Shown here piece by piece: positions 1 to 64,000 of a stretch of DNA of 64,000 nt. This DNA is from Tubiluchus corallicola (Eukaryota > Priapulida > Priapulimorpha > Priapulimorphida > Tubiluchidae): NCBI GenBank assembly GCA_030141605.1, contig JAQGDQ010000133.1, positions 124,001 to 188,000 on the forward strand, read 5' to 3'. The notes beneath the pieces were generated by a model that was given only the letters and a program-made list of their open reading frames with translations, had not been told where the DNA came from and made no database searches. Every line of letters starts with the position of its first letter. Position 1 is the stretch's first letter. Position numbers and translations under genes: made by a program.

Positions 1-3000
1 ATGTGCAAAAAGGAAAGAATCTACATTCGAGACAGAGATATGTTGGATCGGCATCCCAGTTTACAATCTAGAATGAGATCTATATTGTTGGACTGGTTAA
101 CTGAGGTTTGTTTCATTTTATTCCATTTTAAATAAGTTGCTTAATGATAAGTGTATTGTAATTGTAAGAAAGCATGTCCTTCATTTTGATCTACCATTTT
201 TTTTATTTTCTTAGGTATGCGAGGTATACAAATTGCACAGGGAAACATATTACCTAGCTGTGGACTACATTGACCGGTATTTAGCCTCTGAAGAAAATTT
301 GCCCAAACACCAGTTACAGTTGACTGGCATCACATCACTATTTATAGCTGCAAAATTAGAGGTAATACTGGTCGTTAAAGTACACTAAAAAGTATTTTGT
401 ACGGCATCACCATGAAAATATTCAAGCTGTAAGGGTATAGTGAAGTATTTAGAAAATTTGGAGTGCTTACTTGGAGGAACCAATTGAGAAATAGTTTGAA
501 ATTGAATAGTAATTACATTTTGGAGCAGTTCTGTGCCTCTCAGATGCAAACTCGTGTGGCTTTGTTTTACTAATGAGTCATTGCTTATTGTGTTGAAAAA
601 CCCTGATGGATGCCTTTCTATATAAACTTTTAACTAGCTATGCATTCAAGAGCATTAGGGGATTCACAGAATAGCTCAGTGGTCGCAGTGTGTACACAGT
701 AGTCAAAGTCAAGCAATGTTGAGCCTGGTCAATAAATGGATGGGTGTGTGCTACAAAGTTTCATCTGCCACTTATCTCGATAAAACACGTTGTGTACATC
801 ATTTTTGATTCTTGGCTGTCGTTGATAGATAGCTAGATTCTGGCCCTGTCATGATTATTAGTTTTTTGCGTGATTTAACCTGGATTTTGACTTGCAAAAT
901 GTCGAACTGTAAATGGTTAGTATCCCACGAGAAACTACTACAGTGTAATGTATAATAATATACTATATCACAAGTTTATGAGCTGTCTCTTGAGTGGCAT
1001 ACAAGTTTTATATCACATTTGTGCCCGTTGCATCCCGCCAATCTTCGGCCTCTTATATGTGGCAGCCTATCAGATTTTTTTTCCAATGTTAGATTTGCAT
1101 ATTAACAATTGAACATTCCATTGTGAAACGTAAATATATATAAAAAAACTAAAAAAATTTCAACTAGTGATGGAATGAACCTCTAATTTGCTGAATGAAG
1201 CCATCGCCGAACCTTTCATTTTAGAATCAAGTTGAACTGGATCGTGTGTTGAAATAAGAAATTGCTGGCTGAGCTGAACAGATGCAGAACCAAATTAGGT
1301 TGAACAGTACATTGTTTTCCTTATTGGTCATATTGCAAAAAATGTACAAAATTTGAGAGGGGATCTTTATCTTTTGTACTTAAACTAAAAATGTTATCAT
1401 TGCAGCTCGAACTGAACTGCATCTGAACTTGTATGCTGGACTATTAATATTTTATCAAAAAAGCATTATGAAACTAGGAACAATAGCAAAATTTTACAGC
1501 CAAAAAGAAAAATTTGGCGTCCACAAATTTAAAAGGTAGAACACACAAGTGTACTGCGCAGGGCACTTTTTTAACATTACACTTTTGCTGCTGCTTGTGT
1601 TTTGCATCTACTGTAGGTTTATCGCTGCTGCGAGAAATTCTAGGCACTTGATTATTAGTATGATTATGATGTAGTATGATTATTAGAGTTAATGTATTAT
1701 TAGAGTTAAAGTTTCTTTGCCACATGCTGATTGAGTAACAAAAATACTACACTAATTAACGAACAGAATCTGGCAAGCCGAGTAAAAGCTGTGGGTTGAA
1801 GAAAGTCAAACAAGAGTGCTGAATTATCATTGCCGGGCCAAATCAAACCGAATGGTTGGTCCCATCACTATTTTCAATTTAAGTACTTCTTACCAGTGGA
1901 GCAGATACACTTGAGCAAGTTAAATCACAATTAACCAATCTGGGCTGTTACACGGTGGCTGTTTAGAAGAATCTTGTAATAGAAGTCTTGTATCACTCAT
2001 AATAAGTAATACAAAATTAGATCTTGCATTTTGGCCAATCAGAAGTATAGATTTTTTCCTAATTTTGGACAACATGTGTTACAATAATAGAAAGCTGACA
2101 GTGACATACTTAATCACTTATTTTATTTAAACAAGTAGAAATGATATTTAAAATTGTGTATTTATATTGTAGGAAATTTATCCACCAAGACTTAAAGAAT
2201 TTGCTTACGTAACCGATGGTGCATGTACAGAAGCTGAAATCCTAGATAAAGAGCTTATTGTATTAAAGGTAAGTCGATAGGTGTTAGCGTTTCTCATGAC
2301 ATTGAACTTTTTATACAACTCCTTTAACTCTTTTAATGTTGGTTCAGATTGGGTCAGTTTAACGGCAATGATATTTTGCCACTTATTTTCTCATTTAACA
2401 TTAATTCTGTTTTATGTTGAGTTTCACTTTTCTTACCATATTGAAGCCATGTTTGCTGCGCAAAAAACAATAATTTAACTTAAATTTGTAGTGGTCTTTA
2501 TTATGGAGTATGGCTTGATTTAACAACATTTCACATTATACCAGAAGTGACAGTGGGTCTTTTCAAAGATTTGTATGTCCATATTAACATTTGTCAGCTG
2601 TACAGGTCACCGTGAGTTGTGCACCTGCAGTTTGGTGCATCTTTTTAGTAAGATATCATGGTGTGAAGTCAAATAATGTGTGATTTTGCAAAAATTGTTT
2701 TTCTGTCGGTTTTCCCTCTCGGTATGTGCACAGCCAGCACTTCCGTCCATGCTCTTTATGTTAATTGAATGTTTGGCATCATTATTTTTTGTAAAACTGA
2801 TTGAATTTGAAAGACCAATGTCAATTTTCTATGTGAATTACGTTTTTGTGGTGGGATAGCATATTTACGGTAGTGTATTTTGTGAATGTTAGCCATTGAA
2901 ATAAAATGTTGAACAGTTATTTAAATCTTGCCATTACGATAAATTTACATGTGATAAATGCTGGTGAGAAATGCAACACACATCAGTAACACCTGTTTTG

Positions 3001-6000
3001 CCGCAAATGTGGGAAAATTAGGGTTTGCTTTATGTATTGTAAAATTGATAAGGTCGTAAATTCTTGTACTGAGAAAAAGGTTTTGCCTGTTTCACTCTGT
3101 AAATTGTGTCATCTTCTAAACTAAAATGCCACTATGTTTTTTGGCTGGTTTGGTTGTTTTTTAAAGGACAAGAAAAGTGGAGTTTAGTGTGAGTTTCAGA
3201 AACATACATTACGAAACATGTTACATGTACTTTGTCATAATGCTTATGCAAATAAAGTACTCAAGTTTAGGATTTGGTCAATGTCTGTTTTAGCAACCAA
3301 ATCAACGTTTTGGCGCTTGACTTGTTTCATTATAGTAAATCAATTAGTTCGACTGGGTAGTGGGGCTACTGGATCTATGACATTTTGAGCTTTCTTGACA
3401 CCTAACCTACGACAGAGTTTCTTTTTACAAAATGCTGGTTAAGTAGGAATTCTTGAAACTATAGGTAACTTAGGATATGTAAAGAAAACGTTTTTGGTAT
3501 TACATTATATCAAACATTTTTAATTATCAGGAAATCATACAAATGTTTTTTCGACATACTGGATCCGACTATTACCAACAAATTTTGACGCTATGCATTA
3601 GCTTCAAGCTTACGACGTTATTTATAGGTAATATACCTAGGGCAGTTTAGCAGAATGATTTAAAATGAAAACAAATCAAGACTTCTCTTAGCGCAAGTAT
3701 TTTGTACACATGTAACTATAATTAAATTTGTATTTTTTCAAGCTGGTTTTTCTGAAATTTACATTAAAAACCCTTTTTGGCAGCCCTCTAAGTTTGTTCA
3801 AGAAGTTTAATTTTGAATTCAAATGGATGATTTGCTGGTTACCTGGAATGTGAAATTTCAAGATTCTTAAAATTTCAACATTCAAGACTGCTTTGTATTG
3901 TGTTATTGTTAATGTTCACTACCCTTGTGTTTAGATGTTAAAATGGGATTTGACGCCAATGACAGTCAATTCATGGCTAAATGTTTATCTCCAAGTAACG
4001 AACTTAGAAAACAGAGAGGGAGAAGGGGAGATGTTCGTAGTACCACAGTATTCACCTCATGTCTTTGTGCAGGTAGCTCAGGTACGTTAAGACTTTTTAT
4101 GGCAACATGTAATTTATGATGCATTGCTAAAATGAATAAATTTTTTTTTGTTTTTCTGCAAAGTTCTTTTGCTGAACTAATCCTTTGTCTACTGCATTTC
4201 TTATTATAACTAAACTTTTTTCTAAAGACATTTATGTATAAAAAGAGTAAGCCGTTTGCACATTTAGATGTAAGAAGACAATGCACTGAAAATAAAAAAT
4301 GGAGGTGTTTAATGTGTTATTAACTTCATTTGTTCCCATTGAAATCAAAGCTTGAAGACACATTTTTTTCCCAAAGAATTTACATTGATTTTGCTTGGGA
4401 AACTTTGGAAAGCACAAATTTGATGTTTGATGCGACTGTGCAGTAACAGCTTACCCACGATGTTTTGCTGCACTTTGCTGGACAATTTAGCAATTTGAAA
4501 AAATGCAAAAGCAACTGTCAAAGCATGAAGAGCTAAACAGGCTGTGGGCAAAATAGGTAACTAGTGGAAAGTGGTTGTCTGAAATAATCACACTGTGGCT
4601 GTTCCAGTCCTTTTGCAGAAGATATGGTGACCACAGACCCAAGTGCATCAATTCCTTATACCAAACTGTAAATCTAGAAATGCTCACACACTGTCTAGAC
4701 AGCCTACAGTATGGACGGTATAACATGAATGAAGTTTTGTTGATTATCACTATTTTGGTGATGATAATTGCAGTGAGATATTCTTTCCAACTAACATCTG
4801 TTATACTTCATTTCAGTTGATAGATTTAGCAATGCTGGATATTGGGTGCTTACAGTTCTCATACAGTGTGCTAGCTGCTTCAGCAATCTACCACTTATCA
4901 TCACAGCATGTAGCACTAGGAGTTTCTGGTAAGAATATTCACTAGTGGACCTTAAGTGAAGGAACTGGAAAATTGGTATTTTCTGAAAATTTAAAAAGGG
5001 CTGTCTTTGTGAGCAAGCCGCACGAACCCCAAAATCTGTAGAATCTATCAAATTGCCAGTTGTCAACATCATGCTGAACTGTTTAAAAAATTACAATAAG
5101 AAATCAAGAAGCTGGAAGCATGACATTTTAGTACGCTATTTGTACAACTTTATCAGTTTATGCACACGATTTAGTTTAATCATTATGAAACTTTATTAAC
5201 ATTTGAACTACCAAGGTTGATGAGGATAGTGTTTACATGAGTTGCAAACAACAGACTTGCTACCATTACCTATGACTTGCAGGCATTGGTTACGAGTCAC
5301 CATCAATTAAGAAATTTAAGTCATTTCCTAATTACAAAAAAAACAAATACCGGTGCAGTTCACATTACATGCAGAGTTATCGTTGCAATAAATATTCAGT
5401 TATTACATCCTGTAAAGTGAAAAGTTTTACCAGCTTTAAGGAGGCATGAACGTTTTTGTTTTTGCCCTTATCTATCAGACTTACTTATAATTTGCACCTG
5501 GCATTGGGTCAGCTACATAAACCTGTGCAGTAAACACTGTACAGCACAGGCAAATAACATTCTATATACTTTTTATGTGAATATTGTTAAATGTAATAGC
5601 CCCTTGTTGGTGACTTTTTTAGTGATCTGAAGTACTTTTTTAAAAAACTAAAAAACAATTTCGTTTGGAGAACTAACCTCTAAAAAAATTATGGCTTGTT
5701 TTCGTATAATATCTGTGCTACTGTGCTTTTTCTGCAGTAGTAGTTTGATTTGCCATGTGCTTGCTGGTTTACAATTTGCTGATTTTAGATTAACTTAAAT
5801 GTAAACACTTAATTTTTTTGCTTTTCTAGCTGTGGGGTTGAAATACAGTAGCTAAAGAAATAATCATGCGCGATATTTATTACCTGATTAGAATTATCAG
5901 GTCGTGTAATGAACAGTGTGGATAATTAATCGAGGATGCGAACTTGGCTGCGTTATATAACTTATAAGGGTTATCAGGAACCAAATCTGATTTATGGAAG

Positions 6001-9000
6001 ATAAGCAGAGTTGCATTTCATTGTAGATTTTCTGGGACTTTCTCTGATAGTGCGAACAGATTTAACAGATTTACTAAATAAACTTTTCTAATAACCTTTA
6101 GACTGTAGTTACAGCTTTGTATCATACAAAATTTGGGCACTAAGTTGAACAAGTATTGTTAAAAGAACCAGAAACAATTATCTGTTGTTTTGGTTATTTA
6201 TGTACTATTTAAAAATTCATGGAATTGGATAGGGCTAATTCTAAAACTACGTTCTTAAAGAGTGTTCTTAGTGTCTTCTTGTCAACTTTAATAGGAGGTT
6301 ACTTCTTATGTGCCAAAGAAAACTACTTTCTGTCAATATTGCGGAAATTTAGAAATTACCTAAAATGATGGCTTTTAATGAACACAAGTTTAGGAAATAT
6401 AACAAGGAGTATGTGTCACAAGACTCACAACTGTAAAGCTTTATATATATACTATGTGCTGTTGTTTGTGTTTATTGATAATTGTGGTTTGAACTTTAAA
6501 GTTAAAGATAGATGTAGGAGCCAATATTTTTGGTACCTGTTGTGATATTGCACAAAGTCTTCTTGTAACCAATATGTTACTTTTTTGTAGGTTTCAGTTG
6601 GCAAGATATTGCTCAGTGTGTTCACTGGATGGCGCCGTTTGCGGTGACAATACGAGAGAGCGGTGGAACTGAGCTTAGGCTTTTTCCAAAAATTAACCCG
6701 GAAGACAGTCATCATATACAGACACACGGCGTGGACCTAATGTTATTGGTGGGTATCCCAAAACGTTATGATATTACCCATAGCAGTGCTGTGTTCAATG
6801 CCCTGCATACAATCCACATATTAAACACAGAAAGCATGTTGAGGTACTTTTTTAATTCAAGTAATTAACGATAGGAAGAATGAATCCATTGTTATTTAAT
6901 TTTTCAAGCTAAACTTGACTGAAAGTAAGAAATATGAAAGTGCAGGACTGAGCCTGGTTTGACCCCACTAGAGGATGCGCGGCCTGACAAGTACAGGGCT
7001 GTTGAGTTGGAAATCTGATAAAGATGCACAATGTCAGAGTCCAACTATATTTAGCTAAGAAGTGGTGCTGACACGCCACTGACCAGTATTTATGCTGGTC
7101 ATTTTATGACCATGCGTCTTGTTACCTGCAGCTTTCTCAGTTTATGTGCTGGAGATTTGGAATGGAGAATGGTTTCATATTTCACCAGAATACATGAAAT
7201 GCCAAGAAATTAGAATTCGATCACTCAGCGTTAGAGGTTCTAGAAATGACATCAAAAAAGGAATCTTTAGCCAATGATTTAGAGAAGTATAAATTATTTT
7301 AGCAATACAAGAAACATACAGAAATACAAAGAAACTGATTATTTTGACTAAAATTGTAAATACAAAGTATTTGTTCATGGGAATGAGAAAAACTCACGTG
7401 CGGGTGTTGGTTTTGTTTATTTGTCAGATTTCCCGTGTACATTTGATATTATAGGTACCAGAATAATTGCACTAAAGACAACGGTTGGTAAGAAAGAATT
7501 CACAGTTTTGAATAGCTATGCTCCAACGTTAATAACTAGTGAAAAAGATCCGAAAGTAAGAGAAAATTCCTATGATGAGCTTGGTAACTATATATAAAGT
7601 CATATTTTGATAATTTGCGGAGATTTTAATGCTAAAATCAGAGAAGTGCTTAGCCAACTTCCAAAAACCTAATGGCAAGCAACACAGTATTCCAGCACAA
7701 ATATGCGCATGTAACAGCTTGGCACAACACACGTAAGAATAAAAAAACATGGAAAAGCGAACCAAGGACAAATCCCTATCAGGAATCAAATCGACTTTGT
7801 GCTAGTCAGAAAATGGGTAATCTACTCAAGATCATACTCTGGCACATTGACATACACGGACCATTCCCTGGTAATGGTGAAGATGTCGCTAAACTGGGTG
7901 AATATGTGGCACAAAAAATGTCAAACAAAGCACTAGATGTACAGAAATTAAAAGATTCAAATGTTTTAAGCAGTTGTCAAACCAAGTTTAATGGAAATTT
8001 AAGTGGAGAGCACTTTGAAACTGATGTTACTCAGAAACGGAAACAATTTAAAAAATCAATGAAGAATGTTGCTGCCGAAGCCATTGGATACAAAGAACAA
8101 GAAGAAAAGAGATCAAGTGATGAAGAAATTGTTAAATCAGAGTCAGAAACAACTGAAATAAATACTTCATACGAAAAATTTATCTGAAACTGATGAACTG
8201 GAAAAAGAATAATAATATCCTGAATCAAATTCACTAAAGGCTAAATGAAATCGTCTACAAAAAAGTCTTTTTTTGAAGTGCTTATTTTCTTTTATTGAAT
8301 TGCTTGAATACATGGAAAGTGCATTTCGCAATGAAGCCTCAGCATTTAACTGTTCAGTCCATCACCCACGGGTCAAAGGTCAACAATCTTGGCATAACTT
8401 ATATCATTGAGTTTGTCTCATTGAGGCCTTTCATTTGATATACAACAACCTACTTTTGGTAGACCCTGGAAGGCAGTTGTCTCCTCGACCCCCATTTTGC
8501 CCCTAACTGAGTCATAGGTTAACAATTCACACTGTAACCTATACCATTCATTTCGCCTCATGAAGACCTTTCATTTGATATGCTACATGGCACCATTCGT
8601 AGACATCGATGTACTTCAGTTCCCGACCCCCGTTTATCAGTTTTTGCCCCCTAGCGGGCTCGCGGGTTAACTATTCTCATTGTAACCTATGCCATTCGAT
8701 CCGCCTCGTCGAGACCTTTCATTCGATGTGCTACAAAGTACCACTGCTCAACACTCGGTGCACTTCAGTTCCCGAACCCCATTTTTCAGTTTTTGCGCCC
8801 TCTAGAGGGGTTGTAGGTTAACCATTTTCATTTTAACCTATGCCATTCGACTTGCCTCATCTAGACCTTTCATTTCATATGCTACACGGTACTATTCGTA
8901 GGCACTCGATGCATTTCTGTTCCCAACCCCCATTTTTTGGTTTTTGCCTCCTATCAGAAAATTTTTCCCTTTCCAAATCACCCATATTTTGCCATATCCA

Positions 9001-12000
9001 ACAACTTGGTCCCACCTAACCACATACCAAATATTGTCGCCCTTGCTCAAAAACTGTGGGAGCAGATGGATCCTAAAGAAAAATAAATGAAGACCTGACC
9101 GCTCCATGACCTTTGACCCAGCAACTCGGGTCACGTGTATACGTATATAACTTTGGCCAGAGAGTGTACCCTGTGAGTTTTATAACCCTAGCACTCAGCG
9201 TGTAAAAGGTGTAGCACAAATTTTGCATTTTGGCCCCTCACTCAGGCGTTTAAAGCTTGTCGCTTTTTAAAACCCCAGGTGCACACCTGCCCCACAGGAC
9301 CCAAATACTTGTGAAAAAAAATGGAAAATAACGAAAGCCCTAGAAGGAGTTGAATCAAAGGAAAAACTGACCAATGCCAACTGTCCTTCCCCATGACCAC
9401 TGGTCAGCAGTTGCTATACAGTTGTACGTCTCCCGCCCAGCTCTACCAACCGTGTGAGTTTGGCAACTCTAGCTTGCAAGGCATACGAGTTATTAAGCAT
9501 TAAAGTGGCAGAGAATAAATATATAAATAAATATCTCAATGAAAAACAGTAAGATTTTGCTATGGCAAAACCTTAATTAACAAAGCTGAAACTTATCACT
9601 TTTTACAACGGATGAAGTTAAATTTGCAGCTAGGTCGTTAAAGAACAGGATTGACGAAATAAATGCAAAATTACTTAAGTGTGGAACAAATGTACTTTAT
9701 GAATCAATGACAACAATGTTAAATAATATTGCTGAAACAGGAATATTTCCAAAGAATCTTCAAAAAGGCATTCTTATACCGCTGCCAAAACTGGGAAAAA
9801 AGAGAGGAGCAATAGTAAATCTAAGACCACTGATGCTATTAGCCATAATAAGAAAAATTCTAGCAATATGTTTACTCAACCGTATATATAACAGACTGCA
9901 TCTGTGTATTCCTAAAAGTCATGCAGCTTACCAGCCTTGTTCAGACTTGCAAGATACTAGCAGAAAAGCCATCTCTTCAACAGATTATTCAATATACACA
10001 TTATTCATGGACATGTCCAAAGCATTTGACTCAGTTCAAGGGAAAACATTGCTGCACTCTTTACAAGAAATACTTAATCCTGATGAAATTCATATGATAT
10101 CAATATTATTGGAAGATCTTCTAATTAGTGTTAGATGTGAATGCAGACTGAGTGACTCATTTTCTTCAATTAAGGGAATTCCTCAAGGAGACTGCTTAAG
10201 TCCTGTTCTCTTCACTTTCTGCCTAACTATAGCATTAATGGACAGGAACAGTATACCCAGAAAAGAACTTTGTGACCACAACTATGCGAGTCTGGATCCA
10301 GAAAATCTACTATCGGGAACAGAATTAGAACACAATTGTGCTAAGGAAACGAAATATCATAGAACCACAGACCTGCAGTATGCTGATGATATTGCATAGA
10401 TTGCAAAAACCAAAGATGAAATATATGATGTCAAAATCAAAATAGAAACAAAATTAAAAGAAATGGATCTCATACTAAATAAAGATAAAACAGAACATAA
10501 AAAGGAACGGAGATGATGTGTGGAGAAAATGCAAATACTTGGGCAGTCTTCTAGCAACAGATGAAGATATACCGAGAAGAAAAATCTTAGCACTAGCTGC
10601 TATTCCAAATTAACAAAAAAATTTGAAAGTGAGAGGATCAGTTTAGAATTGAGAACCTTTACTGCACTTGTGGAAACTGTATTTTTCTACAACTCAGAAT
10701 TATGGATCGTCAAAGCACAACGCAAATCAGAAATTGATGCATTTCAAAGAAAAAACTACAGGGACATTTTAGGAATAAAATGGCCAAAGAAAATGTCAAC
10801 CAGGATCTGTGTAACAAAGTCAAGCAGAGGAATGGACAGTTAAAACCAAAAGGAGAAGATTAAGATATAAGATGTTATACGAGTACCATATGACAGTCCA
10901 TTAAAATTAGCTTTCAAAGAAGCATTGCAGAAAGAAAAGAAACTAATGTTTGTAAGTTCTTTAAAAATATGAGTATATAAAATGCTTTAGCAGTACTGCT
11001 AATATTAATTAGGCGCACACAGGTTAGGGTGCTAGAAACCAATGAAAAGTAGCTTGATTTTTTTTTGTGTCTTCTATCAACATATATGGAGTTGAAGTAA
11101 TTGGGCAAATAGAGGAGTCAGAGGTACCAAAAATAGGTGTTGTAACCGGAGATTTTGTATACCAGCTCCACAGCTCTGCACTTGTTCTTAATTCAGTCCT
11201 TATAGTTAAAGAAACCAATAAACTTCCAGTATCAATTTTGCATTTCAAAGTCTGCCTTTATTCACACTAGAGAGTAATGCGTAACTAAGTAAAACAAGTT
11301 TTGTAATTAATTTGACCTGGAATTTATCCGAGATTATTAATTATTAAGATTAATTTTAAGATTATTTTTATTAGTTTCAGTCTCAACTCAAAGATTCGAG
11401 ATGGTGTTCAACACCAGGCTCAGTCTCGCCTTGTGACATTTCCTTTGTTTTGATCAAGTTTGTTTTCAAGTCAATAACTGTGGGTTTTTTCCAATCACCA
11501 CCTAATAATGTTGAGATTATTAGGATTAATTATATTAAGATAAGTAATTTATAAATAAATTGCACTTGTTTTTAGGAACGAGCACAAGCAAGGCAAGAAG
11601 AGGTTATACAGTCTTCCCGCTCCAGTCCTGTTATGGGTGCATCATCTGTAAGCGGTAGGTTATGCTCTATTTACACACCTCTCTAGCTGATATTTGGCTC
11701 ATTCCCTAGGCTGTTAGGATTTGGCCTTGATAATGAAATTTAAATGATACTGGGGGTTGTCAGTGAAAAGGTGGATGATCTCTTATTTCAGTAAATTCTG
11801 TGAGAGGTTTCATTCATCATACTGATTTTGCCCGTTTACCTATTTACATCTACCGTGGCACGTATGCGCATCTGAACGGGGTTGCAATGTTAAATGCCTT
11901 AGCTAGATTATAGACTATAGATTATAGGCACAATCATCCGACGTTCATCAAGCTTTGCTACTGAATGCTGAACTTTGGCAGCCAAATGAGAAATTCTGTG

Positions 12001-12473: not shown

Positions 12474-15320
12474 AAATGCTATTTCTAAAATAGCTGAAGT
12501 TGCACTAGTTCAAAAATTGACAGTTTTGTTTGGCAAAGCCAACATTCTGATTCATGTGAAAACCGTCGACGGGCAAACAGCGATCAGGAATGAGGAAGTA
12601 CCTCTGCTGGGGTTTGTGTCATCAGTTTTTGAGAGGTTTATGCATTTTCGTGTGTGAGGAATCAACATTGTCTCAGGAGTGTATCATAGATATCAAAAAA
12701 ATATGTACTAATGGGTCCGGAGGTAAGCCAAACAGAGTGGGTTGACGAATTTTGTGCAACTTTTTTAAAAATTCGTGTGATATGTGGCCTCAAGTTCTTA
12801 CTGGTGATATTCAATATGAGATGGCTCTAACTAAATTTTATCTAAAGTCAGGTTAATCGTCTAACTGTTGTATATTATGGATATTTGTATAACATTTTGA
12901 TGAAGTGGTTAGTCCAATGTATTTAGATCAGGCAGTAACTGTCTTCCCACGCTACCATGGAACCTAAGTGTCTTTCAATACTAATACTTTGTTTGTCATA
13001 GATTTTCAGTTACGCACAAAGTAGTTGACTAGTTGTATATATCTAGTGGAGGAGACAGTCTCCTCCTTTTTTCAGAACAATCTAGATTTTCTAGGGTAGT
13101 TAATTAGTCATTGCTGGATATAGACAATGTGTACAGGAAAAATATGGGAATGTTTCCATCTCGTATTTTTAGCTATAATTACAAGAAAACGAACTTCGTT
13201 TTTTAACGCATTGCACCCAGAAGAATAGTCTTGTTGTAGCTTTAGTTGTGGAGATGTTTAATCAAAACTTTTGACACTGCCTGTTTAATGTTGTTGTAGT
13301 TGCTCATTGCAAAATTATTGTTTTACTGTGTATGTATTGCATTTGCTTTAAATTTTAATGTACTGTTGACATACGGAGTAAGTAATTTTCATTGACATAC
13401 GGAATAAGTAATTTTCAATGTGGATGTAATGGCAACTCATAAAGCATGTGATGGCAACAGGTTCACAGTAACTTAGGATGATGTAAGATGCTTTTGGATT
13501 TTAAAGTTCAAGTCTTGTGTACAAATTTTAACATTGCTGTTTAAATTTTAGAAGTTGAACCTGCAAATTTTTTTTTGCAATCACAAGTATGTGTGATTGT
13601 TGTCACAGTTTTTGTGGATGTTGCTACAACAAGTAACCACACTAGTAAATATTTGCAGTTGTCTGTATTTACTGTTTTACAATTTTAACTTGAGTGACTT
13701 CTAATAAATAACATTACTTTGGATTTGCTAGTATCACTGTGTAGCATAGTTCTTATATTTTGATGGCATTTTTGTGATTTGCCTAAAATATACCAATGTT
13801 AAAGGTAGTAGAGCAGGATTTTAAAAATAGTGTTGTGCATAGCCATGACTTTTTTGAGTGAGAATTTTTAGTGGGATCTGCAATACTATGTGATTAAATT
13901 TTGTTCAGCTTTTACTGAATACTTACTCTTAAAATCCTTGTGGGTTTGTGCTATCATTAGTTGAATTAATGGGTTTCCTCACAGTGCTAAACAAGTCTCA
14001 TTCTCACGAAAATGCATTCCTGCCATGGCTTATCATTAACGAGCTTTCCGCCTTATGGACCAACTTAGTGTAATATATAAAGAGTATTCTTAACTATACT
14101 ATTGTGTATAATGTCGTGTGTTCGTTAAAATACTGTATTTATACTCTACTCTCTCATGTCGTCTTGTAAATAATTACAATGAATTAATATAATTTTTCGA
14201 CAACACGCCCAGTTGCTTTTGAAGCTGTAATGAGTATTCAGATTTTGATGTAAATACAGATTGCAATATTTTGTTGTTTGTAGTTTAAATAATACTATCT
14301 TACCCAGAGTTTTATTAGCATTTACCTGTGAAATATTTACTCCTACATTTACAGCGTCTTCCATTTTAAATGCCAGCGGCTCATGTTTTAACTTAATGTA
14401 ACAGTATTTTAACCAGAGTTTTGTCATCAGTGTAACAGTACCTTAACCAAAGTTTCCTGTACTTTTGATGAAATGTATACTCACTGCATCGTCTTCTCGT
14501 TGTCTCATCTTAACTCAGCATATGCCCTTAAAAGGGTATTTTAGTAATATATATGTCAAATGCGTGTAATTTGTGACTAGCATAAGTATGCCATCTGCAT
14601 ATGTACTGGTCTTCAATGACATTTTATACGCTGCATGTTTTTTTTGTTATTCTTCAGCACTTCCAATTTAGTGCATTTACTATTTAACAATGTTAATGTT
14701 GGTGTCAGTAACTCGTTCTGCACCTTGCTATTTGTAAGCAGGGATTTCTAAGGATTTGTTATAGTACTGACCTCCTGAATGATTGTTTTGAGTGTATTTT
14801 AGGGTATTTTCCCCCCGCAACTTTTCTGCAATCAAACTGTTACAAAACACATTTGTCATGCCAATTTGTTATCTTGTATTTTATTGCTCCAAATAAGAAA
14901 TATTATTTTTTTGTCGTATTTTTGTACAAAATGATTTCTGTGAGTTAATAAACTAGTATGTTGTGTTATAATAACTAAAGTTTTCATAGTTTGTTATGAC
15001 AGCATTACATAACTGTGCCGCTTTGCAAACCTGTGTAACAGCTAATTGGTGTACTGGCTGTTATTGAAACAACAGAATACAACTGCTGGATATTCACTGT
15101 TAACAACATGTCTGTTTTTTCACTAATTTTAATTTTACAAGATACGAACAACTGTTTTTTTTAAATGATTTTGCTCTTACATGATAAGAAGATATTCAGT
15201 GTTCTTTTAGAACACTAGCTAGATTTCATTAAGTGACAATGAAATCACACGATATCTAGCTCGAATAACAAAAATAAATTGTAAAAACTAAAAATTCTGC
15301 TTGTTGTAAATATACTAAGT
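12474..15320. other. Spacer between convergent cyclin E and URI1 genes
   Basis: No coding frame is supported. It should hold the 3' UTRs of both genes. On the plus strand AATAAA occurs at 13703-13708 and 14947-14952, candidate cyclin E poly(A) signals. TGTAAATA, the Pumilio-type element, occurs at 14165-14172 and 14249-14256. A 25-base direct repeat (TTGACATACGGARTAAGTAA core) lies at about 13366-13415. A hairpin lies at 13048-13066. Confidence 0.6.
13048..13072 (+). other. Short perfect hairpin followed by six T
   Basis: GGAGGAGA, loop CAG, TCTCCTCC, then TTTTTT. The stem is eight perfect pairs, about 575 bases after the cyclin E stop. It would form in the 3' UTR if the transcript extends this far. 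Function unknown; the layout recalls a Pol III or intrinsic terminator but nothing upstream here looks like a small RNA gene. Confidence 0.45.
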
Positions 15321-18300
15321 TCATTTTTTACTGTTCAGGGAGACGCCCAATCTCAGGGCGCGAAATCGAGACAAAGGTCGATGTCCTTGAGTTTCCGATT
15401 TAGACTCGGAGATTCCAACCGCTTTGACATCATCTAAACTACTGGCCTTTTCAATGACTGAGTCGGATACAGCAGCAATTTTGTAAAGAGTCTTTTCGTT
15501 ATCTGTATCCAGTTGATCACACTGCAGTGTTTCTCCTTGAGGTTCACTTGTCTGGAAAGTAAAGGATAAAAGTAATTTATAGATCTGAAAAGTGTACCGG
15601 TAAAGCCTTCCTCTTTTTTATCACTAAATGTCATCACTTTTGGCATAGTACACTAGTATCAGCATCAGGACTGTCACTTGCTAAAATTAGTACCAAAGTT
15701 AGTAAAATAAGAAAAAATACACCTTTAAAATAAAACTAACAGGTTGGGTCATGCAGTGATGGTTACAGCAAAATTCAATATGTAAAAAAATTGGTTTGCT
15801 TATTAGATTCGTGAAAATGCTTTTGCCGTAGGTCTGAATTATTTACGCTAACAACGTAGCAAACTCTAGGCTTCCAAAGAGACACTCATTACAGAGATAT
15901 TTCATGGAAGTGAAACTTGTTTCTGTGACTGGACAGATGCTAGACTTCTCAAATGGGAGGTACTTCAACTGTAAGGGAGAAGAATTTGCAAGGCGAGGGA
16001 TTTTTTGTTACAGGAACATCAAACTGTAAAAGAATATACTTCGTACATTGCGTGAATTCTTAAAAGAAACACTAATGTCAGCATCCAGGCAAATGTTAGC
16101 ATTGAAACTCAAAGGGAAGTTTCGTGTTTCCTTGCCGTCACTTTTTTCTTTTAATGGCACTTAATAAAAGCTCGTTTTGCCCTTCCAACAACATGCTTGG
16201 GCAAATAAATCAACTGCAATTGCTACACCCATGATACGGGAAATTGAAAAGAGAATTTAATTGTTCTAACGAATTTAATTGTCTTAATTATTACCATCAT
16301 AAAAGCACAATGGAGAAAAGATTTCTAGAGTAGATGGGGAGAATTAAGCATGCCTGGCATTGCAAGGGGAGGATTGCACCTTTTAACTCTGACAACCACT
16401 ACGCTAGATAGTCTTCAAGAGTTTTTGATTTTTTGCTAAATTTTCCCAATTTGCCAGCTTGTTTAGTAACTACGTAAATGAGAGTTTGCTGTACATGTAA
16501 AGACTACTCACTACTCAGGTGCTAACATAATCATAAAATGACAACAACTAGCACATCGTGAAGCATCTACCAAATGACTATACATGAATTTGTAAATAAA
16601 AGCAAATGCATATGCAAGCATTTGAAAACCTTTTCAGTCTTGTGATACTGCAGCATGAAATCCACAGATGATTTTGGTCCTGAATCTGTTTTTAAAATTG
16701 ACTTTCCTGGAACCTTTTCTCCGCAATTCTGAATGAAGGCCTTGTGTATATCCGCCGGGCTTTGGATGTCAGAAAGTTCTGTGGCTGGCTGAAGAAAGCA
16801 AAAAGTGACAATTATTGGTGTTAACCATTTGTGCGGCATTGTCAGTTACAACTACTTTTCAGTACAGCAACAAAATTTAAGAAACGGTAGAAAGAAATCA
16901 CTAATTACCAACTGCTTCATCTATTTAACACCTTTTTTATACAGTTCTGAATGCTGCAGTGCCAAACTCAGTGCCAATGCCTATTTAATATGGATAGTTG
17001 TGGTGGATCTGAAAACTGACTCACTAACCCTCTAAGGCGAGTGTGTAAAATGTGTAAACTTTTTCCCTCTGCGAGGTAAATGCTCAGGGACATTATGGAA
17101 GATGGAAATACTCAGAAGATGTTTTTCTGGCAGTCACCAATAGTGCATAAATTCAATTGCTCAGCACATGCCATCACTACTTGGTTATTCCAAACATAAA
17201 CATAAAAACTAATGCATTAATTAAATTAAGACGACACATTAAGTCATAAAATTTTATAGTTACCAGATACGAACAGCAAGAATAAATTATCCAACTCTTT
17301 TAGTGATACACGTATTCTGGTGTAAAGTTGTATGTACCGCAGAATTAATGCATATTGGATATGTTTGCAAGTAGTGAAAATGAACTTATGTGATCATTTT
17401 TCCAGGCATACAAAATCTTGCTTACTGTACTAGCATGTGGGACTGATCTGCTGTAAATGAAAGGCACCACTTTTTTAGTTTTTCACTTCTAGTTACTCAG
17501 CAGGTGTTAAATGACCAACGGTTTGGTGATTAAACATCAAGGTCAGTAATTGTAAAGGTAGCTGCTATAAGCAAATTGTCATTGGAGAATGTGTTGTTTT
17601 GGTCCAGACCATTAGCTTTGTTTACAGTTACGTAACTTACTTGCTCAGCTGATAATCAATTACACTAGAAATGTGAGATTTGCAACCTACCTCCATAATG
17701 CATTTGGCATGGTACTTTGCAAATAAGGTTTTGAAGCTAATTTGCAAAAATTTAGCCCCGGCTTTATTTGTAGTTCAGAACATTATGTGTTAGTTAACAA
17801 TACATAAATGTTAATGAGCAACAATAGACTACCTACAAAATTAATTTCATTTTCTGTTGGTCGACTGTGCTTGATAGTAATTCGCAATGGAGGATTAACA
17901 TCATTGCTGTCAGAATCATCAGAAACTGAACTTTGTTTGATGTCCTTGAAAGACACTCTTTTTGAAAGTGGCTGAAAAATACTGATCTGATTAAATTTTG
18001 AAAAAAATTATGCATGTGAGAAGACGTCATTGTACAAATGAACTTACAAAAGTTTCCACAATAAATGAGTGCAGCAGAATCAATCAAAGACTTTCTAGTT
18101 ACTACAGAATGTTTAACTACATGGCAAGGTTCAAAAGAATCTCCAATCCCTTTGTTAAGATTAGATAAACAAAATGGTAAAATTCCAAAAAAAGAAGAAA
18201 ACTTTTAGATAATAGCTCATATTCACTTATGATTTGTTGCCCATAATATTTGCCCAAAATTTTTAAAAGTTAAACATCAGCTCAAAATCTAATTACTAGT

Positions 18301-21300
18301 CCACGAGTGTAGCTAGCAAACACGCCACTGTCGGGCTTTTCAAACAGCAGGAATCACTCACGTGCATGTGCACGTGTTTGCAAGACTGCAACAAGACAAT
18401 CAGCACTTTCACTGTATGTTAAGCGACAAAATCTTGATTAATGACAGTTCACCCTTTACACAAGCAAGCTGCTATTAATTTTGCTTTTTATAATTTTTTT
18501 ACAGCTAACATAACTGCATAAGCTCTCATCGATGGAACCTATACCGTTGGTGATACCAGAAACTAGTTAATTAAGAATAATCCTCTGTGATGAAAGTATG
18601 CGTTGACAGAGATATATGTTAACTACATTTGGATGTCTACAATACATAACTGGGGACAGTATGGTTGACGAAATGACCTAGCTGCGGTTTTCTCAAAGTT
18701 GCTCAACCATTTAACTAGCCTAACTCGATAATGACTAACTTGCACAGTTAAGGATGTTCTATTTCCTTTGTCTCCAGATAATATAAACAAAGTAACTTAA
18801 TAACTTAAAACAAAGCAGAGACCCATCACACACAATTATAAGAGCAACTTGCACTACCTGATCTCTTATCGTTGATATTTGTTTGGCTTCTTCTTTTTCA
18901 AACTGCACAACATCTCGGTCTGCCAAAGATGCAGACAGCGCTTCCTCCTGTTCACTGAAATTCATGAAATACATAAATGTCTCTCCTTAAAATACCCAGA
19001 ATGCAGCATTTTACCTGACCTACAGTGTGGCATTTTACCATTACAAAATAACCTGTAGTTACAGCAAAAATTTCAAGGACCTACTTCTTCAAGAATAATT
19101 TATTTATATTTCCTTCCATTTCTTCTTGTTTTTCCAGCTTCTCGAGTTTCTTCATTATGTCATCATTGTCGTTAGATGTCATGGACATTTGTGAAGCTTT
19201 TATCTGTTTCCGATGAGCCCGCACTTTCTTCCTGTGTTCCTCTAAAAATGTATATCTAATACTGAACACACGGCAGCTTCAGGTACACATTAGTCTAGAC
19301 ATTTACAAAAAAATTCCAAGAGTTAAGGTAAGGCCAGAAAGATTTCCCATATTGATAAACAATTTCTGTTGACACTCTGGAAATGGAAAAATGAATGAAC
19401 TGAATATTTCAAGTTCGTCTTATATGCAGTGTGGTACAGGGATACCTTCAACGAAATATAATTGCTACTAACTCAAAATTTCGTATTTCCTGATACACCA
19501 ATACTCTGTGTCAAACTCTGTAATGCTGTGCATAATGTTCTACTATAACCCATGGTGTAGCCGTTTGCTAAAATTAGTACTAAACTGTGGAAGCTAGACT
19601 ACTGGAAGTATCATAAAATGCATGAATATTGCTTAAATAAAAAAAGTGTCATTAAAACTTTGCAAACTGTCAATACAATAATAAATTAACTGGTAAAGAG
19701 TTAGTAAAACTAGTTTAAACTATTAAGAAACTACCTCTCCATTTTCTTTCAGCCTCTTCATCATAATCTTCCAAAATTTCCCTTACACCGCCCTGCTCTT
19801 CAGCAACAGCTTGAAACTCTGCTGAATATTCCAAGCGTGGTTCAAGAAGTTTCTTCTCTTCATTTAAATTTTTAAGTTGCTTTTCTAGATCTGCAAAAAT
19901 AAAAATAAGTTAACAGTTTCTGTAAAATAATTTTTTACCTACAGAATATCAGAAATAGCCGTATTTATTTGTACTGAGGAAAATGAAGCAGTTGAATAGC
20001 ATTCATCTGTATGTTTATTTGAAAATATCAACAACCCAGTGATGCATAGAACAAACTTGTGAAGCCATTTTCCACTTAACAGATACATGGTCAAGGTCAC
20101 CTGTACCTAGCACAAAGGCTAATGGTTAAGGTACTCTGCACTAACACAAAAGTTACCGGTCAGGACACTTTATACCTAACACAAAGTCAAAGGTCGGGTT
20201 CTTTTGTATCTAACACAACGTCAAAAGGCAAGACCCCTTTGAGTACCTAGTATAAGAGTCAAAAGGTTATTTCTGGTCCTCACTAACTAACACAAAGAAC
20301 AAAGGGCAAGATCATCTCTACCAAACAAAAAATGTCAAACTTCAGTAACCACTGTGCAAAATCCTAAAAGCAAAGCAGGGTCAAAGTTGTAAAAGGAGAT
20401 TTGCCTATTTATTATTTACTAGCTGTCTAAATATGGGTCAGTCTCTGTATAATTACATAAATTTTTTACGATAAACATTGCTAAGATTCAGAATGCAAAT
20501 GCTTGCTCCAATTTTATTGCCACAAGTGAAACTATATGGTTTAATACAGCCAAATTTCACAGCATTGCCTGACTATTCGGTGCCTCTTAAAATATTTATA
20601 TTATAGCTAAAATGGTGGGTTGCACAATGGATCTCTTGTTTCAGCAATGCAATGCATTATTTACAAACTTAGTCTTAAAGAAAGAAAAAGATAATTTGTA
20701 CTTGCAGTCAATTCTTCTCTGAGTTATTTCGCCTGCTTGTGTTGCAGATCTCTTTGCAAACCAATTGTCACCAAGTAAGACCAAAATTTCGTTTGTGTGT
20801 ACCAGTTTGCCTGGCATGAATGCATACTTGCCAAATGCAATCTGGAAGAAACATAGTATAGGCACAAAAGAATAAACAGATAAAAAGAAAGAATTTATTA
20901 CATCAAATAACTAAAATAAATTGAGCAGTATTAGCACATAAAGGCCAAAAAAAATCACAAAAACTTGACCAGTACCTCCTCATTTTAACTTTTTCTTAAA
21001 AGAGAAAGTTTGTTACGTACCTGACAGCTGAATGTATGAGCTGAGGACAAAAGAACAAAGGTAGTAAAGACTGATGTGGCACTACGGGTCACAGCACTGT
21101 TGTTACACAATTTACAGTGTCGTAAAATGCTTGTTATCATGATTGATAGTGCTAAGCACACTATCAAATTGTTAAATTAAACAAAATGTGGCTAACTTTT
21201 GGATGAATATCTATACATACGTATCAAAGCCTTGATTATTCTGCTTTCAAAGAAAACAAAATGTGCAAAATTTGAAATAGCATGGGGAGCCTGGTAATTG

Positions 21301-23035
21301 TAAATTGTAATTAAATGAAGAAAGTGAAATTAATTGTCACAGTATATGGTTAACGATCAATATTCTCTTTCTATGGGAGGTGGTATACATACTTGGGCAT
21401 GGCTAAGACACTTCTGCCAGTTCAGTTTCTTATCTTAGAAGATCATTTTTAGACAATATAATTAAAAACACTTCAGAAGTATACAAGGAAGAAAGTGTGG
21501 AGACTTTAAAATTAGTAGGCGGGCTCATACCTGTTTGTACAAGCTGAAACTTACATTATAATCATATGAAACTTTATGAGGGAGCGTTTCCAGCTTTTCG
21601 AATAATTTTTTGTAGTCACTTATAAACTTCTCTCTAGAAATAAAACAATTGGATAATGTACCACACTATAAACAATAAAAAGCATAGAGTTGAAACGGAC
21701 TGTATACAGTTAATTTTAATATTAAAAAAGTTTTTAATAGCTAACAAGTGATGTAAAATGAGTTCTACATAATGTCAAGAACTGACAGAGACGTGCAACT
21801 TACCACACACACATATAAACGTGTTTTTAAAGTTTAGTGATATTATTTAACCTTTTTGTCCAATTCTAGTCACTTTTTATTCTAAGAACAAAGTACTCCA
21901 AGACATGATTTATAAAACTAGTCCCTTTGAGAAACTCCTGTGATCGTAACTCAATCGACTAATATCTACCAAGAGCTACAATAGGCTAGAAAATTTATAA
22001 GTTTTCTTTGTTAAAAATTAAAAATGTTTTTTTGTACCTTCAAATTTTTATTTACTTCTCTTTAAGGTTTTACCAATTCCAGCACTTTGATTATTCATAT
22101 GGATGAAGCTATTTTGGTTTTATCAAACATTTTATAGAAATATTCTTTGGTAAACTGGTAATTTTCGAAAAACTTTTGCTATGCCAGCAGTCATGAATTG
22201 TGACCATTATGACACAGACCACTTTAAGGGTATGATACATCTACATATACTAGTTTGACTTACATCCAAATCACCTTACGATCGACCAGTCAGAATTGAA
22301 TGAGGTTTTATCTTATAACTCTATAACTCGAAAACCTGCTATATAAAATTTCAGCAATTTTCGAAAATGTCACCTGTATTACAGGCAAGTGTTAACTTAA
22401 TGCTATAGGACAACATTGTGTGCTCAGATAAAATTGCATTGCCATAAGTACAAGGAATGTTGTACAAGCAAAACTGTAAAATAGTTAACTAAAGATGTTC
22501 TTTTTTCACTACTTACAGCTGTGCAATTCTTGATAAACAGTTATCCAGTTCCTACAAAAGAAGTAGTTCACATTAAATAGATTAAATGTATCAATTAAGT
22601 CATGGAATAAAAGCACAGTTATATAGATCTCATCATCAATGCATCTCACTGCATTATATAATATATAATGCCAATCTACTAATCTTTCCAATCAACCGAC
22701 TGAATTATATATAACTGTGCTTTTATTCCATGACTTAGCTGATAATATTTATATAGTTATTGGTTGACTATGCAGTTATATAGAATCTCATCATCAATGC
22801 ATGTTACTACTGCATTATATATAATACAAAAGTTTGTCTAGGCAAAGTGTGTAATTCGAAGATTTTGAATATACTTTTTTCTAGGCATTTTATGTAATTG
22901 CAATTGCTGTTATAGGGCATGTGTGAATACTATAAATTCAATCGGTTTTTTGGAAAGATTAGTGGATTGTAGGTACGTAGACAGATTGAAAGACAGGTAG
23001 GAAGAGAGATTGATAAACAGACAGATAGACTGAGC

Positions 23036-23066
<31 letters not shown>

Positions 23067-23121
23067 GGAGAGAGAGAGGGAGGGAGAGAGGAGAGAGGAG
23101 AGAGGAGAGAGGAGAGAGGAG

Positions 23122-23187
<66 letters not shown>

Positions 23188-24832
23188 CCTTATGCGTCCA
23201 TTGATGTTCATTTAATCAAATGCAAAAAATTCGTTCTCTCCGCATCATGTTTCTAATATTAACCTCTTCTTCTTATGGCAATATCAGTCATACCCATTTA
23301 AACTCTACACAATACGCACAATTGTATTTTCGTAAGCGCTAATCCTTGGGCAAAGTTATAAAGTTACTTTAAGAAGACTTTTTTGAAAACTGGCCTAATC
23401 CGTGAATAGCACTAAGAACATTCTTACACACAGATAAGCTCACGCAAAAATTGTCCATAAGGACTTAATGAATCCGGCCCCAAGGTATAGAAAACGATTA
23501 GCCCGATTGAGCAGCATGTCAGAGATGGTGACGTTGCACCAACCGCCAATAAAACAATTAACTTAGTCAATAAATTACTTGAATTGCTTGCTTAGTTTGG
23601 TAAATTAACTAAGTCGTTTTATGCATTCCACTACAATGGCCAAGTAATGTATAAAATATCTAGGAAAAATTCAATTCAACATAAATTATGTTCATTTTGC
23701 ACATTATCAACATCACTTTACGCATTTTATGTAAATCCTAGGTATTACACAAAACATCTAGGCAACGTGTGAAAGACTTGCAGCAACAATATTTATTTCA
23801 CACTTTTCCTGAAATGTGTAAGTATTATATGAAATCCATCAGAATTTTATATAATGCCTAAATTTTACACATTGTCTGTAACACACATAATAAATATCCA
23901 ATGTTTCCAATCACAATGGAAAGGGCAATAAAAATAAATTGTTGAACCATTCATTCCTGCACTCATTGCCATACAATATTACTATTACTATCAGCTGCAA
24001 CTCTATGCACAGATCTGTAAATGCCTCAGAGATGCGCGGCTATCACTTTCTTCGCAACTGTACACATTCACATCTGCAAAATCCACTGAAATATGAGTGC
24101 CCTACAGTTAAAAACTTATTTTGCATGAAGCTAAGAGTTATAATCTCCGCAAAGGAATTTTTTTGTAAACCCTCAACAACTCTCACCACACAATGTACTT
24201 ACATCACCCCATCATATAATACCCATCTTACCACACCAGAAGCTATAATAATTATCGTTGCAAAACAGAAAAAGTTGTTCTGAAATTGGCTAAACTTTTT
24301 GTGTAAGCAATCGAAAATTTTACCATGCATACGTGGTTTCTGCATGATGCAATTTCAAGCAAAATCTGCAAAATTAGGCATTAAAAATCTGCAATTTGTA
24401 TATCCACACACAACACACTATCCACAAAATTAGGGTGGATTCTGCAACCGCATGACCGCAAATCCACTATCCACGTATCTCTGAAATGCCTAGCAGGCTT
24501 AGCACACTATAGCCAAAGAACCAAGATTGATGTACACTAATTTTATGTGCAACTAGTTTTCCTGGTATAAAGGATGGCCTGATGAAGGCAAATTGAAGAG
24601 CATCACTTGACTTTTGTATTTAGCTTTTTCAAATGAATCCAATAAATAAGTCCAGAAAATGTCAGACATATTTGAAGCTCTTACAGGGCTACAAAATCTC
24701 AAAGTGGGTTAACTTGTTTAATCCAAAAACGTGTTTCTCAGTCTGACTATACAAGTGTAAAAAACACAAAAGTTTTTACAGACTAACCTTTTGCTGTTCT
24801 TCCCTCAGCCTTGCCAAATATTCTTTATTCAT
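15321..24832 (-). CDS. URI1: URI1, unconventional prefoldin RPB5 interactor (10 exons)
   Basis: Prefoldin-like subunit of the R2TP/URI complex that binds RPB5 and helps assemble RNA polymerases. Exons in transcript order: 24832-24788, 22551-22517, 21633-21555, 20841-20706, 19890-19735, 19241-19085, 18954-18858, 17971-17837, 16788-16630, 15551-15321. Every phase joins, giving 409 residues. The N-terminal prefoldin coiled coil contains YLARLREEQQK, then the signature FMPGKLVHTNE...VLLGDNWFAK (about residues 61-85) and a second helix. C-terminal hallmarks are SPADIHKAF, KSILK (309-313) and a basic PLSRFRALRLG tail. It is shorter than the human protein (about 535), apparently lacking the long Asp tract. 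RVSF (240-243) fits a PP1 docking motif. Intron 4 needs a GC donor. The start ATG is the first in frame before the LREEQ helix. Confidence 0.93.
18359..18376. promoter_or_regulatory. Palindromic pair of CACGTG E-boxes
   Basis: CACGTGCATGTGCACGTG: two CACGTG cores in arms CACGTGCA/TGCACGTG around a TG centre, inside URI1 intron 7. bHLH-type factors bind single CACGTG sites; that this pair is functional is untested inference. Confidence 0.3.
20100..20345. repeat. Diverged ~36-bp minisatellite (URI1 intron 4)
   Basis: About six units start with CTAACACAAAG-like sequence near 20106, 20142, 20175, 20210, 20246 and 20284, each followed by a GTCAAAGGTCAGGAC-like block. Units differ by substitutions and small indels. 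Non-coding, within the intron that follows exon 4 of URI1. Confidence 0.65.
22589..22820. repeat. Compound inverted and direct repeat (URI1 intron 1)
   Basis: Positions 22597-22625 (core GTCATGGAATAAAAGCACAG) recur as an exact 29-base reverse complement at 22708-22736; an imperfect extension reaches 22589 and 22745. In addition CAGTTATATAG, ATCTCATCATCAATGCAT and CTGCATTATATA at 22616-22660 are repeated in direct orientation at about 22769-22820. It looks like a foldback element or rearranged MITE. Intronic, non-coding. Confidence 0.75.
23033..23181. repeat. (GA)n microsatellite with GGAGAGA interruptions
   Basis: Nearly uninterrupted GA dinucleotides with a block of GGAGAGA units in the middle. 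Open frames across it are low-complexity artefacts. It lies in URI1 intron 1. Confidence 0.95.
24027..24483. mobile_element. hAT-like MITE, 457 bp, perfect 8-bp TSD (URI1 intron 1)
   Basis: The terminal inverted repeat reads CAGAGATGCGCGGCTATC on the left and CAGAGATACGTGGATAG on the right (reverse complement). Both flanks are AAATGCCT (24019-24026 and 24484-24491), an exact 8-bp duplication as made by hAT transposases. There is no transposase; the 114-codon frame inside resembles nothing known. Confidence 0.85.
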
Positions 24833-63138: not shown

Positions 63139-64000
63139 TTTCGTGGTGTGTTATATGCAGATTTCCAGAGTCCAACAACAGCGCCCGTTCGATGTATGAT
63201 GGAAAACTCGACTGAAATTTTGTCGGGTCATTACGCCCGAGTCTAAGTTTAATTTTCCAAAGTGCCAGCAACGTCATTAAGGTTATATGTAGTAGTTTGA
63301 ATCAAATACAGACATTGCTGATAATGACATTTACATGTTTTTCGCAAAGTTTTATAACATCATCTCATTAACAACGTTTTATAACAGCATTCTCATCATC
63401 AGTCATTGACGTAAAATTTCAGGGTCATTATTGAAGAGAACAACGATAACTAACTTGATTTCTGATTAGTTACCAATACAGTTCAGCCGATTAATTATTG
63501 ATCCAACTCAGCCGATTAATTACCGATTTAGCTGAAAGGATTAATTACGATCCAGTTCTGCTGTGTAATTACTAATCCAGCTCAACGGATTAATAACACT
63601 GACCCAGCTTTGCCGATGTTGTCAAATACAAATTATACGCATTAAATTTTACAATGATTTTTTTCCTCAAAAATGATCAAAAAACAAGGAAGCCTTTAGG
63701 TTTATGCACTGCGCAGATAATCTGTAAGCTTTTGTAGCTAATTATTTTCTATCAAAACATAATTAATAAGGATAAGCCTGCTGCTTCATGCAGCATTAGG
63801 CCATAGTTTTTCCTTGCTTGCATATTTTGGCCAATAATCCATGGGTGACTTCTGAAATCGATTACAATCCATGATCGTCTTCATTTTGCTAATACATATT
63901 TAGCATACTGCAGCAGAGACTGATGATCTCTAGCTTAGTGAACATGGTTTCAAATAAACAGCGGCATGTAAAATTCGGCACATATTTTTTTCAGAGATTG
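63139..64000. other. 5' flank of the DEG/ENaC gene
   Basis: Should hold the promoter of the minus-strand channel gene. Apart from the minisatellite below I see no recognisable gene or element to the window end. Confidence 0.4.
63470..63618. repeat. 25-bp minisatellite, about six units
   Basis: Units such as TTATTGATCCAACTCAGCCG+ATTAA and TTACTAATCCAGCTCAACGG+ATTAA, with a roughly constant 25-base period. The consensus is TTACYGATCCAGCTCAGCCG+ATTAA. It lies 330-480 bases upstream of the DEG/ENaC start codon. Confidence 0.85.

Follow-up and report, generated by a model that had tools for sequence, protein, structure and literature searches.

The question raised by this locus is whether the genes for cyclin E and URI1 are direct neighbours here, as at human 19q12, and whether such an arrangement would have come down from a common ancestor. 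Cyclin E is the CDK2 activator at G1/S, and URI1 acts in the assembly of RNA polymerase as a prefoldin-like chaperone subunit. Both genes were modelled in the window, that is, the whole stretch of 64,000 nucleotides that was analysed. For cyclin E, eight exons on the + strand join into one open frame of 327 residues ending at 12,473, in which 8/8 acceptors are AG and 7/7 donors are GT; the model is without the N-terminal exon(s), which sit upstream of the window. The features of this gene are:

-54..105 (window part 1..105), + strand, cyclin E coding exon; Pfam Cyclin_N, E 1.5e-29, jointly with exon 215..361
215..361, + strand, cyclin E exon, joined frame
2173..2268, + strand, cyclin E exon, joined frame
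3935..4081, + strand, cyclin E exon, joined frame
4817..4928, + strand, cyclin E exon, joined frame
6591..6748, + strand, cyclin E exon, joined frame
7352..10843 (outer limits approximate), + strand, remains of a decayed non-LTR retrotransposon inside the cyclin E intron 6749-11575
11576..11654, + strand, cyclin E exon, joined frame; aligned to human cyclin E1
12388..12473, + strand, last cyclin E coding exon, stop TAA at 12471-12473; aligned to human cyclin E1

The best PDB match to the model was human cyclin E1 (E 5.7e-112), aligned over residues 2-315 of the 327 in the query, a span that includes the C-terminal LTPP..KK motif. A partial query matched cyclin E1 at E 2.5e-62 and cyclin A2 far more weakly, at E 2.9e-17; the cyclin box is nearer cyclin E than A, B or D, and the C-terminal LTPP motif is present. 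A long-shot pattern search for cyclin E relatives in a prokaryote contig collection returned 25 stretches, 0 of them confirmed. The reverse-transcriptase ORF of the retrotransposon remains (9590-10396; Pfam RVT_1, E 1.7e-11) lies within the cyclin E intron and outside the interval between the two genes; an endonuclease-like NQIDFVLV was also spotted by eye in these remains.

The URI1 model is on the - strand, with its ATG at 24,832 and its stop at 15,321. The last eight of its exons, which begin at 21,633, form one open frame of 387 residues; one donor is GC, as judged from the frame, and the others are GT. The first exon does not join in phase with the next, so a small exon between it and 21,633 is absent from the model. 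The features are:

15321..15551, - strand, last URI1 coding exon, stop at 15321-15323; C-terminal ..GHRPLSRFRALRL
16630..16788, - strand, URI1 exon, SDIQSPADIHKAFIQ..GKSILK
17837..17986, - strand, URI1 exon with RVSF, joined frame
18858..18954, - strand, URI1 exon, EQEEALSASLADRDVVQFEK..
19085..19241, - strand, URI1 exon, EEHRKKVRAHRKQIKAS..KKLEKLEKQEEMEG..
19735..19890, - strand, URI1 exon, LEKQLKNLNEEKKLLEPRLEYS..
20706..20841, - strand, URI1 prefoldin exon, IAFGKYAFMPGKLVHTNEILVLLGDNWFAK..; Pfam Prefoldin, E 4.8e-8 for the exon alone; GC donor
21555..21633, - strand, URI1 exon, EKFISDYKKLFEKLETLPHKVSYDYN
24788..24832, - strand, first URI1 coding exon, MNKEYLARLREEQQK

In the joined frame, a Pfam Prefoldin domain was found at residues 2-88 of 387 (E 3.8e-14); it is of the alpha type and is followed by a long C-terminal extension. 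PDB matches were weak, with only prefoldin 5 (E 1.6e-4) found, as a related match. We take LARLREEQ, FMPGKLVHTNE..LLGDNWFAK, RVSF, PADIHKAF..KSILK and SRFRALR to be URI1-type motifs; the last three stand in the order expected from human URI1. RVSF in exon 17837..17986 is presumably a PP1-docking motif. From the long C-terminal part and, to some extent, these putative motifs, it seems likely that the gene is URI1 rather than another prefoldin. A figure legend describes the URI architecture as including a C-terminal URI box and a PP1-binding site (PMC2346476 Fig. 1 legend). A long-shot pattern search for URI1 relatives in a virus contig collection gave 45 stretches, 0 of them confirmed.

The two genes face each other across a single interval:

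12474..15320, no strand, CCNE-URI1 interval between the stop codons, 2847 bases

No Rfam family at the gathering threshold and no tRNA was found in the window, and the five ORFs of at least 60 residues overlapping 12,287-14,948 contained no Pfam family above the cut-off, a search that could miss a gene with short exons and no known family. The gene models and the Pfam, Rfam and tRNA scans thus bear out the first-pass annotation, which had placed the two genes side by side with no gene between them, in convergent orientation (cyclin E +, URI1 -). The stops are 2.8 kb apart and the start codons more than 24 kb. The first poly(A) signal on the + strand is at 13,703 and the nearest on the - strand are at 15,133 and 14,885. 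With signals so placed, the two genes need not overlap at their predicted 3' ends. A shared bidirectional promoter was ruled out, since the genes are convergent.

The assembly is a draft of 2344 contigs, and a misjoin at 12.5-15.3 kb would produce the adjacency as an artefact. We consider this scarcely credible: the interval is without N, its base composition is even, the sole tandem repeat reported in 12.0-16.0 kb measures 52 bases, cyclin E and URI1 are both complete at their facing ends, and a random misjoin is very improbable as the source of a pair that are neighbours in human.

The first-pass annotation also described the human genes as neighbours, and in a published 19q12 table they are indeed consecutive: in hg19, CCNE1 at 30,303-30,315 kb is followed by C19ORF2 (URI1) at 30,433-30,507 kb (PMC3446387 Table 2). 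The same two genes, which also form part of an amplicon in human (PMC3446387, PMC5362444), are thus paired here, although the human gap is 118 kb compared with 2.8 kb between stops in the present genome. The human list continues after URI1 with ZNF536 and TSHZ3, and has POP4 three places before CCNE1 (PMC3446387), whereas here POP4 lies on a separate contig (C2282). The search for further 19q12 genes in this genome covered POP4, out of a set that also includes UQCRFS1, PLEKHF1, C19ORF12, VSTM2B, ZNF536 and TSHZ3. As for ZNF536 or TSHZ close by, the searched part of the contig gave a match to a single C2H2 gene (about 234-245 kb), which by eye resembles neither; the pattern match lies at about 234-237 kb, some 46 kb past the window. 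The orientation differs as well, since the pair is convergent here and the human genes, presumably on one strand, are head-to-tail. The published table gives positions only (PMC3446387).

Such a likeness could be a coincidence, in which genes of a common ancestral linkage group became neighbours independently here and in vertebrates. With assumed numbers of genes and linkage groups, the chance of adjacency per pair was estimated at about 1 in 10,000 under full shuffling and about 1 in 400 with shuffling confined to 24 linkage groups. These per-pair figures (about 0.01-0.24%) argue against coincidence, whereas about 48 shared adjacencies would be expected by chance genome-wide with shuffling inside 24 linkage groups, and the orientation unlike that in human (where both genes are presumably on one strand) also speaks for it. 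The same is true of Drosophila, where, in the published accounts of the two loci, uri is uncovered by a 2R deletion and CycE maps to 35D4 (PMC2346476, PMC4978916), so that by these loci the adjacency is absent. The orthologous uri too has a convergent neighbour there, with overlapping 3' UTRs, but it is CG12252 and not CycE (PMC2346476, PMC4978916).

By the counts given in a study of 49 genomes, three-gene blocks inherited by the vertebrate ancestor number 70, compared with 110, 120 and 124 in shuffled genomes (PMC8851819); because such blocks are fewer than in shuffled genomes, a match to human only is weaker evidence than it looks. The conserved metazoan microsynteny blocks described there (Robert et al. 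2022, PMC8851819) likewise keep neighbour relations over deep animal divergence, but they need at least three orthologues, whereas the present comparison is of a single pair with a single named species. Literature searches joining the CCNE/URI1 pair with synteny or microsynteny found no paper; a broader search on the pair gave no gene-order study among the matches listed, and one on chicken chromosome 11, GOT2 and CCNE1 gave nothing relevant among the matches listed.

The rest of the contig bears on this choice. Within about 100 kb upstream (contig C1080) we found one direct and one interrupted human-neighbour pair. In the first, a BPHL-like gene (+, contig positions about 43.7-48.3 kb; best described by its PDB match to valacyclovir hydrolase, E 5.4e-72) has as its next recognised neighbour a beta-tubulin gene (-, about 59.6-63.5 kb; Tubulin_C, E 3.4e-45); two published lists of the OMIM genes in human 6p25 give BPHL, TUBB2A and TUBB2B in succession (PMC4502905, PMC7479479). 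In the second, an ANO10-like gene (+, about 26.7-36.6 kb; PDB anoctamin-10, E 5.7e-54, versus anoctamin-6, 4.6e-33) is two recognised genes away from SNRK (-, about 72-100 kb; PDB match of the kinase exon to SNRK, E 5.1e-105; the 72-73 kb stretch assigned by eye). The human genes are at 3p22. A GWAS table annotates one SNP at chr3 43M as [ANO10] and SNRK at 51,244 (PMC6746768). Both further pairs were picked out post hoc, and the tubulins form a multi-gene family. At least two direct human-neighbour pairs among 12 intervals would be expected with a probability of about 6.5e-7 (full shuffle) to 4e-4 (24 linkage groups), or 2e-6 to 1.2e-3 with ten-fold weight on the tubulin interval.

Since the contig carries both of these pairs as well, local ancestral gene order seems to have been retained in general here. 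This speaks for inheritance of the CCNE-URI1 pair and makes the pair less special. The two pairs also argue against independent placement, which we regard as unlikely, and make ancestral inheritance the best reading. The proposal of ancient microsynteny in the first-pass annotation thus stands in part: the genes are adjacent as in human, chance is improbable and the contig holds two further human-neighbour pairs, while Drosophila, by its published loci, lacks the pair.

The pair might instead be held together by selection, through enhancers that serve both genes, a common chromatin domain, or a bystander arrangement, with regulatory elements of the partner or of a nearby developmental gene sitting inside one of the two. 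Nothing observed at the locus speaks for shared regulation. Blocks of linked genes held by selection do exist in animals (PMC8851819), and in the human list the genes next after URI1 are ZNF536 and TSHZ3 (PMC3446387). We nevertheless find this improbable, as the genes are convergent here with distant start codons, the human gap is so much wider, Drosophila has no such pair by its published loci, and the C2H2 match on the searched part of the contig comes only well beyond the window. Narrower still, and doubtful to a slightly greater degree, is the proposal that the adjacency dates from a bilaterian or older ancestor and was maintained by selection acting on a chromatin or regulatory domain common to both genes; tumour co-amplification at 19q12 would then involve a linkage that goes back over 500 million years.

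Probably, then, cyclin E and URI1 were neighbours in the ancestor common to this animal and vertebrates, and both lineages retained the pair neutrally as local gene order has been slow to decay here. One or more small inversions would have flipped one of the genes, giving the convergent arrangement here and the presumed head-to-tail one in human. The adjacency itself would most likely be without function, each gene having its own promoter at its outer end and working independently. No evidence of a special function for the pairing emerged, and as it stands the pair resembles any other instance of retained local gene order, of which the contig shows two more. If it proves common to several phyla, it would add to the known old gene linkages, in this case with a tumour amplicon involved, and one could then test whether genes that are amplified together have long been neighbours.

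The first-pass annotation placed cyclin E and URI1 next to each other, and the coding models of both genes uphold this:
54 bases before the window to stop 12,471-12,473, + strand: cyclin E coding model (spliced open frame)
ATG 24,832 to stop 15,321, - strand: URI1 (exon model and Pfam)

Eight coding exons of cyclin E, with AG acceptors and GT donors, were spliced into a single open frame of 327 residues. In a PDB search, residues 2-315 aligned to human cyclin E1 (E 5.7e-112), and the alignment extended through the C-terminal LTPP..KK motif. An additional 5' exon (RGKRKAED), picked out by eye near contig 118.0 kb, probably belongs to the gene; retrotransposon remains (RVT_1, 9590-10396) lie inside an intron. 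For URI1, 8 of the 9 recognised exons join into one 387-residue frame, whereas the first exon is out of phase with the next, which indicates that a small exon is absent from the model. Its ATG falls exactly on the end coordinate of the first-pass annotation. The model carries a prefoldin domain at residues 2-88 (Pfam, E 3.8e-14) and motifs that we take to be URI-specific; its sole related match in the PDB, a weak one, was prefoldin 5.

The genes are convergent, with stops 2847 bases apart and no gene recognised between them. Five ORFs lying in the interval or at its margins, each at least 60 residues long, matched no Pfam family above the cut-off, a search that short exons could escape, and the window held no tRNA and no Rfam family at the gathering threshold. 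Judging by poly(A)-like signals, the two transcripts could end without overlapping; in Drosophila, the 3' UTR of uri overlaps that of CG12252 on the opposite strand (PMC2346476). The source assembly is a draft (343.5 Mb, 2344 contigs), and a misjoin could have made the adjacency, but this has little in its favour; no N run occurs in the interval.

The coding-stretch scan covered 334,042 of the 534,042 bases of C1080, the contig carrying the window at 124,001-188,000, where the other genes are:
contig ~26.7-36.6 kb, + strand: ANO10-like anoctamin (scan and similarity search)
contig ~43.7-48.3 kb, + strand: BPHL-like hydrolase (scan and similarity search)
contig ~59.6-63.5 kb, - strand: beta-tubulin (scan and similarity search)
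contig ~72-100 kb, - strand: SNRK (scan and similarity search)
contig ~107-111 kb, - strand: BtpA-family gene, between SNRK and cyclin E (Pfam E 3.2e-10)
window 31285-32292, - strand: single-exon rhodopsin-family GPCR adjoining URI1 (7tm_1 E 4.8e-21)
window ~39.7-47.6 kb, + strand: MRPL3 (similarity search; outer exons by eye)
window ~50.7-57.4 kb, - strand: GOT2, mitochondrial aspartate aminotransferase (similarity search; outer exons by eye)
window 60422-61195, - strand: amiloride-sensitive sodium channel (DEG/ENaC) type stretch (ASC E 3.3e-13)
window 62152-63150, - strand: second DEG/ENaC-type stretch (by eye)

Further along the contig (~234-245 kb, - strand) is a multi-finger C2H2 gene, one upstream exon of which encodes an eh1-like motif (KSCDFSVDGLL). 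At ~460-475 kb lie two aminopeptidase-N-like (M1) genes in an apparent head-to-head arrangement (Peptidase_M1 E 6.1e-5 for one exon, the remainder by eye). Near the contig end an identical ORF occurs both ways, at 528,482-529,066 (+) and 532,964-533,548 (-), an inverted duplication that is either a palindromic element or a palindrome introduced by the assembly.

Drosophila CycE is at 35D4, on 2L. As CycE is listed at that position (PMC4978916) and uri is uncovered by Df(2R)Px2 (PMC2346476), the two are not neighbours in Drosophila. Human CCNE1 (30,303-30,315 kb) and URI1 (C19ORF2; 30,433-30,507 kb) are neighbours, being consecutive in the nine-gene 19q12 amplicon list of PMC3446387 (Table 2), from which MRPL3 and GOT2 are absent. 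That list puts POP4 three places before CCNE1; here POP4 is on another contig, C2282. Within the open-licence PMC literature we found no paper joining CCNE-URI1 with synteny.

Upstream of cyclin E the order is ANO10(+), BPHL(+), TUBB(-), SNRK(-) (contig ~26.7-100.4 kb). Two OMIM-gene lists of human 6p25 give BPHL, TUBB2A and TUBB2B one after another (PMC4502905; PMC7479479), and a GWAS SNP at human chr3 43M (3p22) is annotated [ANO10], with SNRK at 51,244 (PMC6746768). Two pairs on the contig, CCNE-URI1 and BPHL-tubulin, are thus direct neighbours in human as well, and a third, ANO10/SNRK, is here separated by two genes; the extra pairs were noticed post hoc, and tubulins are a many-member family. 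Assuming 20,000 genes, two shuffled orders would share ~2 adjacencies genome-wide by chance, or ~48 when shuffling is confined within an assumed 24 linkage groups. For the 12 intervals between 13 recognised genes (contig 1-188,000; some by eye), at least two direct human-neighbour pairs would arise with a probability of 6.5e-7 to 4e-4; giving the tubulin interval ten times the weight changes this to 2e-6 to 1.2e-3.

The ancient microsynteny proposed in the first-pass annotation is partly supported, by the human adjacency and the further pairs, but not in Drosophila. Against inheritance we counted the absence in fly, POP4 on a separate contig and, from the 49-genome study PMC8851819, three-gene blocks inherited by the vertebrate ancestor being fewer than in shuffled genomes; the same study reports that ecdysozoans lost 50% and vertebrates 84% of the blocks new in the bilaterian ancestor. 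Inheritance from an ancestor common to the T. corallicola lineage and vertebrates is nevertheless most likely. The pair has probably been retained because this genome tends to keep genes in their local order, to judge by the other pairs; CCNE-URI1 would then not be special, and selection for co-regulation would be unnecessary.
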